30,485 bases of DNA from a virus. Below, piece by piece: positions 2,150-28,618 of the stretch (position 1 is the first letter of the stretch; each line of letters begins with the position of its first letter). Where the stretch lies: positions 1 through 30,485 of IMG/VR virus record IMGVR_UViG_3300025128_000212, one strand, 5' to 3'. A model generated the notes under the pieces. It was not told where the DNA came from, ran no database searches, and saw only the letters and a list, made by a program, of their open reading frames with translations. The position numbers and the translations under genes are program-made.

Positions 2150-2998
2150 TTAACTTTTTTTATCGTCCTGGACATGAGAGCTATAATGCATCAAATATCC
2201 GTAATTTTTGTCATAATTGGTCGAATAAATGCCGTAACACGCAGTTACTTCGTCAGAGGTTCTGCTTTTCACGTTTTCCTTTATAGTCCTGAACAATCCG
2301 CTACTCTTATTTAATTCATCTTCATTGATAGCATAATAATACCTTATTTCTCTAGGTTTTTCAAGGGAAAAAAACATATTTTCTTTATTATTTTCCACAT
2401 CCATCACTCCGATTGTAGCAATTCTGGCTGTTTCTGGTAGGGAGGCAAGTGTGTCATCAATAGACTTGGTGTTCTCAAAAACATTTATCATGTGGATTGT
2501 TGACACCACCATTTCATTCAATTTGTTGTGGTAACCTATAATCGGAAGCTCGCCCAAAATGTTTTCCAATTCTGAATTGTCGACAATAATCATTTGCTTG
2601 AAAACTCCAGACCTTGTGTATTCTTGAAGCACCATGTAAGTTACTCGCTCTTGCAACTTTTTGGTTTCTCCCAACAAAGAAGTGTCTGGTTTGATATATA
2701 ACAAACTAACGCTTTTTGCATTTCTAGCTACTTGTTCCAAAAGCCTCAAGCACATGCCACTAATGGTTCCGCCGCCGCCTAAAACAAACAACACGTCGCC
2801 GTGCAGATCTCTCAATTCATATTCGTATGATGGGCAAGCTTCTTCGTAATCCTCGTGTTTATCTTGCTTGGGCACCAATACAGATTTTTGTGAATCGTGT
2901 GGGGACGTATCAAAATAATAACATTCGTATTGTGGATATGCCTCAAATGCTGCAGCAACGTTGCAACCCGCTTGGCCTAGGCCTACAATTTTATCCAT
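2150..2998 (-). CDS. Tubulin/FtsZ-like GTPase (phage cytoskeletal protein)
   Basis: A 282-aa protein with the elements of the tubulin/FtsZ GTP-binding domain in order. These are an N-terminal strand and T1 loop VGLGQAGCNV (residues 5-14, compare FtsZ GVGGGGGNAV), the T4 signature loop GGGGTISG (74-81, compare GGGTGTG), a KPDTSLLG segment at the KPF-x-x-EG position of FtsZ (103-110), IIVDNSEL (137-144) at the FtsZ VIPNDRLL ribose-contact site, and an H7-like helix beginning near residue 157. A T7-loop acid is less clear; D181 or D182 is the best candidate. The protein is shorter than FtsZ, TubZ or PhuZ, so the C-terminal domain is reduced. Its start overlaps the end of the polymerase gene by 16 bases, so they are probably co-translated. 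By analogy with PhuZ of jumbo phages and TubZ of plasmids/phages it may polymerise to position DNA or capsids. The fold is well supported; the function is inference. Confidence 0.8.
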   Translation of the reverse strand: MDKIVGLGQAGCNVAAAFEAYPQYECYYFDTSPHDSQKSVLVPKQDKHEDYEEACPSYEYELRDLHGDVLFVLGGGGTISGMCLRLLEQVARNAKSVSLLYIKPDTSLLGETKKLQERVTYMVLQEYTRSGVFKQMIIVDNSELENILGELPIIGYHNKLNEMVVSTIHMINVFENTKSIDDTLASLPETARIATIGVMDVENNKENMFFSLEKPREIRYYYAINEDELNKSSGLFRTIKENVKSRTSDEVTACYGIYSTNYDKNYGYLMHYSSHVQDDKKS

Positions 2999-4176
2999 AA
3001 ATCTTTCATTTCTCCAAAGTTTTTACCCGCCTTTGCGGAGGATTGAAATAATCCAAATTCAGTATCTGCAAACAAGTGAAAAATCTCATTTATTTTATGT
3101 TCGTCTTCTGGTGACATGTCCAACACGATGGAGTCATGTATCATGAATGCGATATTTGTTTTATAGTTCTCCAAAAATTTATCAAGTTTAATGGCCTGTC
3201 TTAAGACGATATCGCTACAAGTGCTTTGGATTATATAGTTCAAAGCGTGGTATTCATCTGAATCTATTTCTCTGCCGAAAGGAGTTGTTACATGTGTGTT
3301 GTGCCAATGCTTTTTCAACACCTTGTCTCTGTCATAAACGCGCTTGGAGGCGGAATCTTTTGAGTGGGGGTTATAAAGCCATGCAAATATTCTCTTTTTT
3401 GCTTCCTCGCGGGTGGTGGTTCCGTGATATACGTGTGTTGCGTTAAAATCGTGTATATCTTCTGTTGGCTGTTCTTTATCTAGCAAACCAGTCAGAGCCC
3501 TCAACTCCGCAGCATTGTAATCCAATTCAACAAACCAGCCATTTTTTGGCTTTAGAATCTTTCTATATGAACTATCCATCGTAAGAATTGGAAAACTATT
3601 TTTTCTAGTGGTAAGGCGGCCAGTCTTTGTTCCAAATATATTATAATCCACAACAGGATTTGTTGTTTTTATTTTTTTGCAGAATTGGCGAACCTTGTAT
3701 TCACTCAGTCGACTCTTCAATTCCTCGGTGTCGACATTGAGAGTTTGTGACTTTATTTTGCCAACCAACTTTGTCATGTCAAGCAAAAAATCATAATTTT
3801 CTGGACGGGAGCATATCTCCAAAGTGTGTTCTGTTATCTTGTTTTTTATCTCGCAGTATTCTTTCAAGAATTGTTCTGGTACGAGATCGAAAAAGCAATT
3901 TTTACTTAGATCAACCCTGGCCTCATGAAAGGATCTGAGAAATGCCTTTAGCCTTTCTGTTGTTTCTTTCCACTGAGTTAAAAACACGGGAGGGCACATC
4001 TCAGTTAATGACTTGCTGCCACAATAAAGACTGGCGTATTCAATATTTCTGTCTGCTAGGAAATCTGAATATTTCCATGTTTTTGTCAGGTTCTCTGGCA
4101 GCTTGTCATAAACAAGGTTCCCGTCGACGTAAACACCTACACAATGTTTTTTATCATCTAAAGCTTGAAAAAGCAT
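2983..4176 (-). CDS. polA: Family A DNA polymerase, polymerase domain only
   Basis: A 397-aa protein with Pol I-type motifs. It has FGTKTGRLTT (181-190), motif A DYNAAELRAL (219-228, the catalytic Asp and Glu), and the O-helix pattern R256-x3-K260-x3-F264-x3-Y268, exactly the spacing of E. coli R754/K758/F762/Y766. PFGREI (299-304), a Q-x-T-x-x-D-I segment (317-323) and motif C IHDS (346-349) follow. About 175 residues precede the polymerase core and show no recognisable 3'-5' exonuclease motifs, so the protein is far shorter than Pol I or T7 polymerase. Proofreading must be absent or on another gene. Position 762-equivalent is Phe, which in marine phage surveys is linked with lytic rather than temperate phages. 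T4-like phages normally carry a family B polymerase, so this combination is unusual. The ATG at 4176 follows GATAGGGA. Confidence 0.9.
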   Translation of the reverse strand: MLFQALDDKKHCVGVYVDGNLVYDKLPENLTKTWKYSDFLADRNIEYASLYCGSKSLTEMCPPVFLTQWKETTERLKAFLRSFHEARVDLSKNCFFDLVPEQFLKEYCEIKNKITEHTLEICSRPENYDFLLDMTKLVGKIKSQTLNVDTEELKSRLSEYKVRQFCKKIKTTNPVVDYNIFGTKTGRLTTRKNSFPILTMDSSYRKILKPKNGWFVELDYNAAELRALTGLLDKEQPTEDIHDFNATHVYHGTTTREEAKKRIFAWLYNPHSKDSASKRVYDRDKVLKKHWHNTHVTTPFGREIDSDEYHALNYIIQSTCSDIVLRQAIKLDKFLENYKTNIAFMIHDSIVLDMSPEDEHKINEIFHLFADTEFGLFQSSAKAGKNFGEMKDLWIKL

Positions 4177-4179
4177 TCC

Positions 4180-5397
4180 CTATCCGTAAAGTCTAAATCC
4201 GTTTGTTGCTTCGCCTTCGCCAACAATTCTCTCGCTAAAGCTTCGTACTTCCTTATCAAGATAATCAACAGATCTTTCATACTGATAGTGTTTGTATATT
4301 TTCTGCGCTTTTCTCACTTTTGCCTCGAATTGACTTTGACTCATACTTATTGTACTCTCTTTTGCTCGAATATACAAGTAAAATCTTAACCAAAAGTTCG
4401 CATCGAAGTCTGCATTGTATTTTTCCATCGTAATCGGGGCGCGGCGGAGGACGCATTTATTCGTGCTTGTCGCCGTGATTGTCGGCTTGATGTAACTTGG
4501 GTATATCAAAACATACTCATTATACCACGCAAACATTCTAGCTTTAAGCTCTGTGATATCATATACATGAGATTTTAAATAATAATCTGAAAAAAACGTT
4601 TTCGGGGTTGTTCCATCCATGGCCATGTGTTTTTTCATTGGTTCCGAAGCCAAATCGGCAACAAGCCTCCATGGTGCGTTTTTATCCACCAAGAAGCCAT
4701 GTCTTTTAGCCATGTATCGGTATGTGTTAAAGTTTGGGCTTTTAATATATTCCGTGTGCTTTACGAGATCATCGGAAAAATCACCCAAACCTATATCAAT
4801 CACCACGCCGCTAGTTCTGTGTGAGCACAGATTGGACTTTACATATGCAGTTTTGGTGATTGGCATCTTGCCGTTTGTCATATGAACCGCTTCCGCGAAC
4901 AATCTCACAAAATCCCTAAAATCCATCAAAGAGTGTTCTCTTTGGTTTTCTTTTAAAAATACCGAGCCGAGAGAGTTGAAGAACATCGTCATATGGCGGT
5001 GATATAGATTGTTGACGCCAGTCCACCCTCGGCGGGGATTGATTGACGCTAGCGGATCGTCTTCTTGCGCGTCCGGGCAACTTCGAAGGGCCATTAGAGC
5101 TTTATACTCTTCGTTGAATTCTTTAAAGGCCGCGGCTACTGGGCGCAGGGCTAGGACTTCATCTGAAGACTTGTTACCGGCAATTGTGCTGAGAAACTTT
5201 GCGCCTCCGAGGTATACCGTCTCGCCATCATAATTTATTTTTCCATATAAAGGGGCTTGGTACCAAAAGTCTATTGGCTTTGGGCCGTCAGCAGGGTAAG
5301 CGCGTTGGGCATAGAATTTTCTCTCCAAAAAACAGCCCTGGGATCCTAGGTTGTTGTTTCCTAGAGCCGTGTGATATTGTGAATTGTTATAGGCCAT
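4180..5397 (-). CDS. Conserved phage protein, probable virion structural component
   Basis: A 405-aa soluble protein without signal peptide or membrane segment, rich in aromatic residues (FWYQAPLYG, YRYMAKRHGF, RMFAWYNEYVLIYPSY). I recall similar segments (a KRHGF-VDKNAPWRLVADLAS stretch near residues 230-250) from large-genome marine T4-like phages annotated as virion proteins, but I cannot assign a defined role. The chosen start is ATG at 5397, with AGGAG 9 bases upstream. A GTG two codons earlier at 5403 is too close to that site. It sits 12 bases after the 1082-aa virion-type gene and 3 bases before the polymerase gene, so it is the junction between the virion and replication blocks. A baseplate or tail role is inferred from position only. 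Confidence 0.5.
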   Translation of the reverse strand: MAYNNSQYHTALGNNNLGSQGCFLERKFYAQRAYPADGPKPIDFWYQAPLYGKINYDGETVYLGGAKFLSTIAGNKSSDEVLALRPVAAAFKEFNEEYKALMALRSCPDAQEDDPLASINPRRGWTGVNNLYHRHMTMFFNSLGSVFLKENQREHSLMDFRDFVRLFAEAVHMTNGKMPITKTAYVKSNLCSHRTSGVVIDIGLGDFSDDLVKHTEYIKSPNFNTYRYMAKRHGFLVDKNAPWRLVADLASEPMKKHMAMDGTTPKTFFSDYYLKSHVYDITELKARMFAWYNEYVLIYPSYIKPTITATSTNKCVLRRAPITMEKYNADFDANFWLRFYLYIRAKESTISMSQSQFEAKVRKAQKIYKHYQYERSVDYLDKEVRSFSERIVGEGEATNGFRLYG

Positions 5398-5409
5398 GTT
5401 CACACTCTC

Positions 5410-20515: not shown

Positions 20516-22306
20516 CTATCCAAGCATGTCTTGAACAATAACCAAACCATACATGTCAGGACGCACCATCTTCTTGCCGTAGCGCGTCATGACTCCCTTA
20601 CGGGGCACGAAGTCTTCGGTTCCAAAGATGGTCGGAGTGACTTGTAGCGGGACGTATGGAGCGTAAACAAAGCCGCTTTCTAGGAAGCTGCTTCCTCTAC
20701 GTCCAACCAGTACTACGTTACGCGGGAAGTAAGGGTCAACCCAAACATCCCACTTCTTGCTAAGACTACCCGCCTTAACAGCACCAACAGTACCGCGATC
20801 ATCATCATGAGTCACACTAGCACGGAAGCCAGAGGTAAACTCAAGAAGGTTGGCGACCTCGGGGCCGCAAACGATAAAGTTAGCACCACCGCGGAGAGTC
20901 TTGCGGTGAATCTGAGCCGAAACGTCGTTGATGGTTTCAACGAGAGTCTCATACCACTCAGATACGGTGCCTGTGAAGTCGGCACCGAGCAAACTTTCGT
21001 TTGGAGAGGTACTGATTTCCTTACCGGAATCGCGAATAACAAAGCGTCCCGGGCGGCGTGACCAGTAGTAGGTACCGGCCTTTGATCCCTTGACAAGATC
21101 TTCAAGGATCTCACGATCAATCTCAAGAGCGATCTGCTCAGAGAGAATTGATGTAAGCTCAACCTCGGCGTCGAGGTTGTGATAAGCGTTGAGATCCTGA
21201 CCGAGTTCCGGTGACCACTTAGCCTTGAGCTTCTTGGTGACTGCGGTGATGGCCACGGAGTCGACTTTCACGTCGATTTCCGGGATACCAGCTTCAGCCT
21301 CAAGTCCCCACTGCTCGGCACCAACAACAGATCCCATACCGTTACCGGTAGTAAGAGTGTCCTTGGCGGCCCAGGACCACGTAACACCAGTACTGTTGAT
21401 TCCGTTGGCCATCGATGAAGATAGCTGCACAGATGTGCGAGTACCTGAGTAGTCAACAAGGAAAAGCAGAAGCTTAGTGTTTGAAGTACCAGAAAGCTGG
21501 GTCAAACGACGGACTGAGGTTTCTCCTGCCGCCGCAGGGAAAGCACCAGAAACTGAGATCAAGTTGTTGACGTTCAATTCCTGTGTATTGGTTGCATTTC
21601 CTTCCATTGTGGCGATGGTAAGCTCACCAATACAAACAGTGGTTGTGCCAGAAACAAAGTCAGCGTCGTAACGACAAAGCCTCATTAGGTCATCAGCCTT
21701 TGTAAGATTGAGAGTTGTACCAACGAGTGACTTGTCAGCATCGGCATTAACGATACCACCGAATACGCCAGAAAGAATCGGCGTAATCACTGTCACGGAA
21801 GATGAACCAGTTACGGAAGCGTAACCCTGGTTAAGGTTGTAGAAACCCTTCTCAGCGTTGGATCCCGTCAACTGAACACCACCGGTCAACTGGCTGGCGA
21901 GGACGCCACCACCGTAAACGGATTCGTTGGTTGCATATCCTAGACGACCAGAGTTCTCATCATCATGAGTAGCTGTGGTGCTAAAGTCTAGGAAAAAGAT
22001 TAGACCTGACGGAAGGCTCATAGGCTGAACTGAAACCAGTTCATTGGCAATGAGCTTGCCGAAAACACGTCTAACAATGGGAAACGCTACAGAAGCGAAA
22101 CCCTCTACGTCACCAGCAGCCATTGTGCTAGCCTCGCGTAGTAGTTCTTTTGCTTGGTTCTCAAGCAGGACACACATTGTGTCGACATTGCGAGTTTCGA
22201 GACCTTCAAGAAGTCCGGTTGAGTTCCACTTTTCACGTAGAGCATCACCTTCCTTCGAGAGATTTCTATTCACAATGCCTTCAGTAAGTTTTTGTAAAAC
22301 AGACAT
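20516..22306 (-). CDS. gp23: Major capsid protein, gp23-like
   Basis: A 596-aa HK97-fold capsid precursor. FPIVRRVFGKLIANELVSVQPM and LPSGLIFFLDF (about residues 74-107) are the conserved gp23 N-terminal block. ITAVTKKLKAKWSPELGQDL, NLDAEVELTSILSEQIALEID and REILEDL form the spine helix and E-loop region, and the end FVPRKGVMTRYGKKMVRPDMYG is also typical. A Leu-x-Glu site at 56-58 (LLRE|AS) is the likely gp21 cleavage point that gives the mature N-terminus. The region about 115-330 is Ser/Thr/Gly-rich and carries the insertion domain, larger than in T4 (521 aa precursor). The ATG at 22306 has AGGAGG upstream. It lies 19 bases after the scaffold gene and ends before a strong terminator. Confidence 0.95.
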   Translation of the reverse strand: MSVLQKLTEGIVNRNLSKEGDALREKWNSTGLLEGLETRNVDTMCVLLENQAKELLREASTMAAGDVEGFASVAFPIVRRVFGKLIANELVSVQPMSLPSGLIFFLDFSTTATHDDENSGRLGYATNESVYGGGVLASQLTGGVQLTGSNAEKGFYNLNQGYASVTGSSSVTVITPILSGVFGGIVNADADKSLVGTTLNLTKADDLMRLCRYDADFVSGTTTVCIGELTIATMEGNATNTQELNVNNLISVSGAFPAAAGETSVRRLTQLSGTSNTKLLLFLVDYSGTRTSVQLSSSMANGINSTGVTWSWAAKDTLTTGNGMGSVVGAEQWGLEAEAGIPEIDVKVDSVAITAVTKKLKAKWSPELGQDLNAYHNLDAEVELTSILSEQIALEIDREILEDLVKGSKAGTYYWSRRPGRFVIRDSGKEISTSPNESLLGADFTGTVSEWYETLVETINDVSAQIHRKTLRGGANFIVCGPEVANLLEFTSGFRASVTHDDDRGTVGAVKAGSLSKKWDVWVDPYFPRNVVLVGRRGSSFLESGFVYAPYVPLQVTPTIFGTEDFVPRKGVMTRYGKKMVRPDMYGLVIVQDMLG

Positions 22307-28285: not shown

Positions 28286-28618
28286 TTATTGGTCCAAGTA
28301 TTTTCGTGAAACATTATTTTCTCCCGCGTGTTCTATTTTTATGCCATGGTCTCCGAAGACCATGCTTAAGGCATAAGAAGTAGCAGAACCTAGCCATCCC
28401 AAAAGCATAAAATTGACTATACTGTACTTAAAAGTAAATAGTTCTGTTTGGTTGTTTAGACAAAACAAAAATGCACCTGTCCAAAAACCCAAACACATTG
28501 GGCAACGGAACAATTCACCAAGTTTTCCATCTTTAGGTCGGAGCGGGTCAAATATTGACCCATAGACGAGAATCTGTGTTAAACCATAAGAACAAAGAAC
28601 AAAATATATTAGATCCAT
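28286..28618 (-). CDS. Small membrane protein with CPMC motif (DUF1360-like)
   Basis: A 110-aa protein with an N-terminal membrane helix (residues 3-22, LIYFVLCSYGLTQILVYGSI), a polar loop FDPLRPKDGKLGELF, a RCPMCLGFWTGAFLFCLN segment that combines a Cys-x-x-Cys pair and a second helix, and a third helix near 66-88. The LR...LG.LF.CPMCLGFW.G pattern is that of the DUF1360 family, widespread in phages and bacteria without known function. It lies between two head-block genes and ends 77 bases before the protease gene. A role at the host membrane in prohead assembly or as an accessory membrane protein cannot be told apart from sequence. Confidence 0.72.
   Translation of the reverse strand: MDLIYFVLCSYGLTQILVYGSIFDPLRPKDGKLGELFRCPMCLGFWTGAFLFCLNNQTELFTFKYSIVNFMLLGWLGSATSYALSMVFGDHGIKIEHAGENNVSRKYLDQ

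Follow-up and report, generated by a model that had tools for sequence, protein, structure and literature searches.

Background

Phage-encoded tubulins are known from the nucleus-forming jumbo phages and from some plasmid-like phages, and we found them in the open literature just in these two groups, an earlier notice elsewhere being possible. In the jumbo phages 201phi2-1 and PhiPA3 the protein is PhuZ, a tubulin fold of ~300 aa. TubZ/RepX, which is encoded by Bacillus plasmids and some phages, belongs to type III plasmid partition; TubZ has the helices H8 and H9 and a C-terminal tail, and is accompanied by TubR and tubC. Alignments of FtsZ, TubZ and PhuZ contain an invariant pair of acids in each T7 loop (D201 and D204, in alignment numbering, in TubZ; D187 and D190 in PhuZ), and TubZ also keeps a glycine-rich T4 loop. 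A diverged branch of the superfamily is FtsZl1, which retains GGGTG(S/T)G, is not alignable on its H7 side, carries coiled-coil domains and is believed to have either a different mode of assembly or none (Makarova and Koonin 2010, PMC2875224).

The locus described here lies in a phage of the Far-T4 group. Neither the description of that group by Roux et al. (PMC4360716) nor a paper on marine Bacteroidetes phages (PMC7198788) mentions tubulin or FtsZ.

Results and discussion

The gene, its neighbours and its carriers

The window, i.e. the whole stretch of DNA analysed, is a 30,485-bp fragment from IMG/VR. An initial annotation had placed an open reading frame at 2150-2998, with a tubulin/FtsZ-like product of 282 aa, between a DNA polymerase and a single-strand DNA-binding protein of a T4-like phage. 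Frame, length and setting were all recovered: the gene begins with ATG on the minus strand (the strand had not been given) and is flanked by a family-A DNA polymerase (polA; 397 aa, 2983-4176; PHROG 17, E 2.5e-20), which it overlaps by 16 nt, and by a gp32-type single-strand DNA-binding protein (SSB; 1310-2080; PHROG 1192, E 1e-24). A UvsX/RecA-like recombinase is found at 132-1259 (PHROG 97, E 7e-54), and polA, SSB and UvsX all share the strand of the tubulin-like gene. Adjoining polA is a clade-conserved gene of 407 aa (4180-5403, minus strand) that has no Pfam or PHROG match. Elsewhere on the minus strand (28286-28618) lies a small ORF with a weak PHROG match and a CxxCxGFWxG-like motif, which we take to recall DUF1360.

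The T4-like affinity could be narrowed by means of the major head protein (20516-22306, minus strand; PHROG 138). Its best tblastn matches are Mel-JY01, LR756508 (an uncultured phage of 484 kb), immuto and Rhodothermus phage RM378, ahead of cyanophages, and because this ranking is nearest to RM378 and Far-T4 rather than to T4 or the cyanophages, the phage is placed in the Far-T4 group. The carriers are a large uncultured group of aquatic Far-T4 phages in which the tubulin-like gene is a single-copy core gene; each large relative holds one copy (8/8), and no second tubulin was found in these large relatives.

The order polA - tubulin-like gene - SSB is present in all 131 related loci that hold both polA and SSB, some of which overlap on the same contig, and the same placement recurs in 64 of 64 loci that were retrieved independently, with the protein itself as query. 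The start of the tubulin-like gene overlaps the polA stop or lies no more than 20 nt from it in 97 of 134 cases. With a dN/dS of 0.081, as compared with 0.074 for polA and 0.041 for SSB, the gene is under purifying selection, as is the polymerase. Distances between tubulin-like proteins follow those of polA (Mantel r 0.83, reached in none of 500 permutations). This co-evolution could nevertheless not be taken to prove contact, since neighbouring genes correlate nearly as well (distance correlation 0.81 between the tubulin-like gene and polA, 0.76 between polA and its other neighbour); the correlation therefore points to shared inheritance or plain linkage and not to contact.

Further ORFs occur within the block. 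At ~50 loci small ORFs stand between the tubulin-like gene and SSB. They are of two unrelated types (L114 3043-3327; L002 5869-6135), either with a membrane helix plus a Cys-rich part or soluble and of a GTFxKKNGDxRTM type. As these are unrelated to each other and often absent, the small neighbour ORFs were rejected as a fixed partner, and no fixed small gene that could represent a TubR-like partner was found beside the tubulin-like gene. Between polA and the tubulin-like gene, part of the clade carries an ORF of 103 aa (L002 4688-4999, and others), whose label as MazG-like is read from the sequence, Pfam giving no confident match, and an ORF of 783-850 aa is inserted there in L063 (7319-9697), L046 (4398-6746) and L079 (7229-9778). 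A phage block made up of a 407-aa-like gene, polA, the tubulin-like gene, SSB and UvsX was also met in the 'chromosome' of a WOR-3 MAG (CP070664.1; L166 5514-11236); it was rejected as a clue to the host, because it lies between runs of N and resembles a scaffolding chimera, not a prophage.

The gene is absent from all 74 loci of the sister clade, that of immuto, which consists in part of cultured Flavobacterium phages. HMM searches of whole records likewise found no tubulin-like gene in four immuto-clade genomes, RM378, LR756508 and Microcystis phage Mel-JY01; immuto and RM378 share related T4-like head proteins with the carriers and lack the gene; tblastn of two family members against 50,697 phage records gave no match. 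In Flavobacterium phage immuto the gene order of the block agrees with that of the carriers, polymerase-X-SSB-RecA-exonuclease-helicase, but X includes a protein of 151 aa. This conserved protein (L259 1346-1798) takes the place between polA and SSB both in the immuto clade and in LR756508, and its gene is absent from 15 tubulin-clade records; the same slot holds unrelated proteins in the sister clades. A tubulin split between the two small genes of immuto was considered and rejected, there being no profile match. The T4 gp45 clamp, tried as a further difference between the clades, was found in neither of them by a search that had no good positive control.

Relationship to the tubulin/FtsZ superfamily

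Homologues were collected via the neighbouring polymerase and SSB, and the resulting alignment contains 87 members of <85% identity. AlphaFold2 models of the window protein (pLDDT 96.5, pTM 0.93) and of a second, divergent member with 32% identity (pLDDT 95.0, pTM 0.90) show the same elements. In Foldseek searches of the PDB the window model retrieves nothing but FtsZ, TubZ and CetZ among its top 50 matches (best E 2e-13, to FtsZ); for the second model the list (best E 2e-12) comprises FtsZ, TubZ and CetZ entries together with a single tubulin, and is headed by a TubZ-GTPgammaS protofilament. TMq values to FtsZ/TubZ are 0.67-0.75 for the two models, in which two domains are joined by helix H7, and among viral models the closest fold is that of an uncultured Caudovirales phage protein which carries the label FtsZ (TMq 0.77).

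Single sequences are less telling, as scans against Pfam, PHROG and PDB gave no confident assignment. Pfam Tubulin (PF00091) matches the window protein alone with E 0.058 and 14.1 bits against a cut-off of 33, and among the 87 members TrkA_N was hit by 12 (best 0.0046) and Tubulin by eight (best 0.0055). This ambiguity might suggest that the protein is no tubulin and represents another Rossmann-like nucleotide-binding protein of the TrkA_N/NAD type, but such an identity is extremely unlikely, given that both models, which are of high confidence, resemble FtsZ/TubZ in the two domains as well as in H7, and that the 87-member profile, run against the whole PDB, matched one distinct sequence only, TubZ/RepX (E 0.0028). 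With hhalign the family matches TubZ at 1.1e-6, PhuZ at 9e-4 (96 columns) and FtsZ at 0.033, values to be read against TubZ-FtsZ (4e-12) and PhuZ-FtsZ (3e-6) under the same conditions; the profile alignment with TubZ is confined to the N-terminal domain and H7. Both the profile search and the structure prediction that had been proposed as checks of the initial annotation thus uphold its superfamily claim. The 282-aa protein is almost certainly a member of the tubulin/FtsZ superfamily, and its homologues form a new, degenerate family within it.

The distance from FtsZ bears on one possible function, that of an antagonist of host FtsZ, i.e. a cap or decoy that binds the filaments by one face and halts division during infection. 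The fold is the same, and the loss of T7 and H8 described below would leave a one-sided subunit; a decoy, however, should resemble its target, while the protein is very remote from FtsZ (10-15% identity, besides the hhalign value given above). Since FtsZ is the least similar of the three families compared (FtsZ, TubZ and PhuZ), and the gene has stayed in the replication block, coupled to polA in its translation, we consider an antagonist quite unlikely.

Retained and lost parts of the nucleotide pocket

All motifs named in the initial annotation occur at the residues given there (GLGQAG, 6-11; GGGGTISG, 74-81; KPDTSLLG, 103-110; IIVDNSEL, 137-144), and its H7-like helix corresponds to residues 156-175 (2474-2533, minus strand, as are all positions in this section) according to DSSP of the AlphaFold2 model. 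The T1 loop GLGQAGCN (residues 6-13; 2960-2983) is well conserved, with G6 in 85, G8 in 86 and G11 in 84 of the 87 members. On the guanine side, N141 of the S5/T6-side motif IIVDNSEL (2567-2590) is present in 83/87 and aligned with the Asn of FtsZ IPN(D/E)xL, an aromatic residue or His occupies position 157 in 79/87, and N161 of H7 is kept in 83/87, the equivalences being taken from alignments, for N141 those to TubZ and FtsZ. H7 further carries H169 (87/87) and N172 (86/87), and its pattern LHxIN is common to RepX and the phage family; with FtsZ the family shares the fold, the layout of H7 and T1 and the guanine-side Asn residues. As these T1 glycines and guanine-side positions are kept, a guanine nucleotide is probably still bound. 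A second conserved set (Y24, Q125, Y127, R129, S130, H169, M170 and N172) lies, to judge from the fold topology, on the side remote from the nucleotide, where H4 and H7 end, and may form a contact surface.

By contrast, the parts associated with catalysis have decayed. The T4 phosphate loop (2756-2779) does read GGGGTISG, as annotated, but differs from the superfamily signature GGGTG(S/T)G, which none of the 87 members contains (pattern [SAG]GGTG[SAT]G); the family instead has GxGx[IV]S[GA], with I/V at position 79 in 81/87, and T or S at the Thr position in just 10/87. In the place of the T7 loop and helix H8 (residues 176-192; 2423-2473) the models contain coil only, and the alignment has no conserved acid. 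The best acidic column, position 189, is acidic in 54/87 members including the window protein, so that a catalytic acid may survive in part of the family. Both models follow the order S1-H1-S2 ... H7-S7-S8-H10-S9-S10 (helix names are our mapping onto FtsZ), in which H8, after the T7 loop, and H9 are missing; the reduced C-terminal domain that had been suspected is therefore real in both (S7-S8-H10-S9-S10, residues 193-273; 2180-2422, by DSSP).

The family thus lacks GGGTGTG, NxDxxD, H8 and H9, all four of which FtsZ has, the glycine-rich T4 loop and the invariant T7 acids of TubZ, and the T7 acids of PhuZ. Compared with FtsZl1 it keeps H7 and has lost the loop, whereas FtsZl1 shows the reverse in the loop. 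The sequences do not support an active GTPase like PhuZ or TubZ, as neither the T7-loop acids nor the phosphate-loop Thr are conserved. The initial annotation had named missing T7 acid together with missing GTP binding as evidence against a tubulin; the former was found at family level, while the guanine-contact residues described above are kept and would allow a guanine nucleotide to be bound.

What these losses imply for assembly is less direct. The SaFtsZ T7-loop mutants N208L, D210N and D213N are impaired in filament formation (PMC8936486), whereas the TubZ mutants T100A and E200A, E200 being the T7 acid, still polymerise (PMC5322520), and in view of the latter the loss of catalysis need not mean a loss of filaments. 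A dynamic filament like that of PhuZ or TubZ, which would position or segregate replicating phage DNA with a changed catalytic site, is accordingly possible, the more so as TubZ, a DNA-positioning filament, is the nearest solved relative by profile and its protofilament the best fold match of the second member. It must, however, account for the loss of a conserved T7 acid, the T4-loop Thr and H8, for the absence of a C-terminal tail helix from the window protein and for the lack of a fixed TubR-like partner. Unlike that of TubZ, the gene adjoins polA. The resemblance to PhuZ phages is also limited, since these are chimallin phages of >200 kb, whereas the largest records of the tubulin clade measure 147-184 kb, and no homologue of chimallin, the phage-nucleus shell protein, was found in six large relatives. 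On balance we regard such a filament as unlikely.

A possible role in replication

The constant placement between polA and SSB in both sets of loci, the overlap with or closeness to polA, the polA-like dN/dS and the unrelated occupant of the slot in the sister clade together suggest a role in replication, gene order alone being no proof; the positioning of replication sites proposed in the initial annotation would likewise follow from gene order. We favour, with somewhat less than even confidence, a guanine-nucleotide-binding pseudo-tubulin, non- or slowly hydrolysing, that would act in the replication complex as a scaffold or switch. The protein would be synthesised along with the phage DNA polymerase and would hold a guanine nucleotide in its T1-T6 pocket, hydrolysis by the usual T7-loop mechanism having presumably been lost. 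Loaded with nucleotide, it might then serve as scaffold or switch by interacting with itself or with polymerase or SSB, and no dynamic, treadmilling spindle would be formed. Taken by itself, this mechanism is a tentative proposal. That a tubulin fold without GTP hydrolysis has been turned into a core subunit or regulator of the viral replisome is a rather doubtful proposition at present.

Conclusions

The family represents a third, more degenerate branch of phage tubulins, and a constant component of the replication genes in an uncultured, widespread group of T4-like phages with ordinary-sized genomes. It raises the question of what role a tubulin fold can have without the hydrolysis that drives the dynamics of tubulin and FtsZ, for which the sister clade without the gene, which includes the cultured phage immuto, offers a natural comparison. 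If the protein has indeed become a subunit or regulator of the replisome, a relative of tubulin would be at work in DNA replication itself, and not as a cytoskeletal filament.
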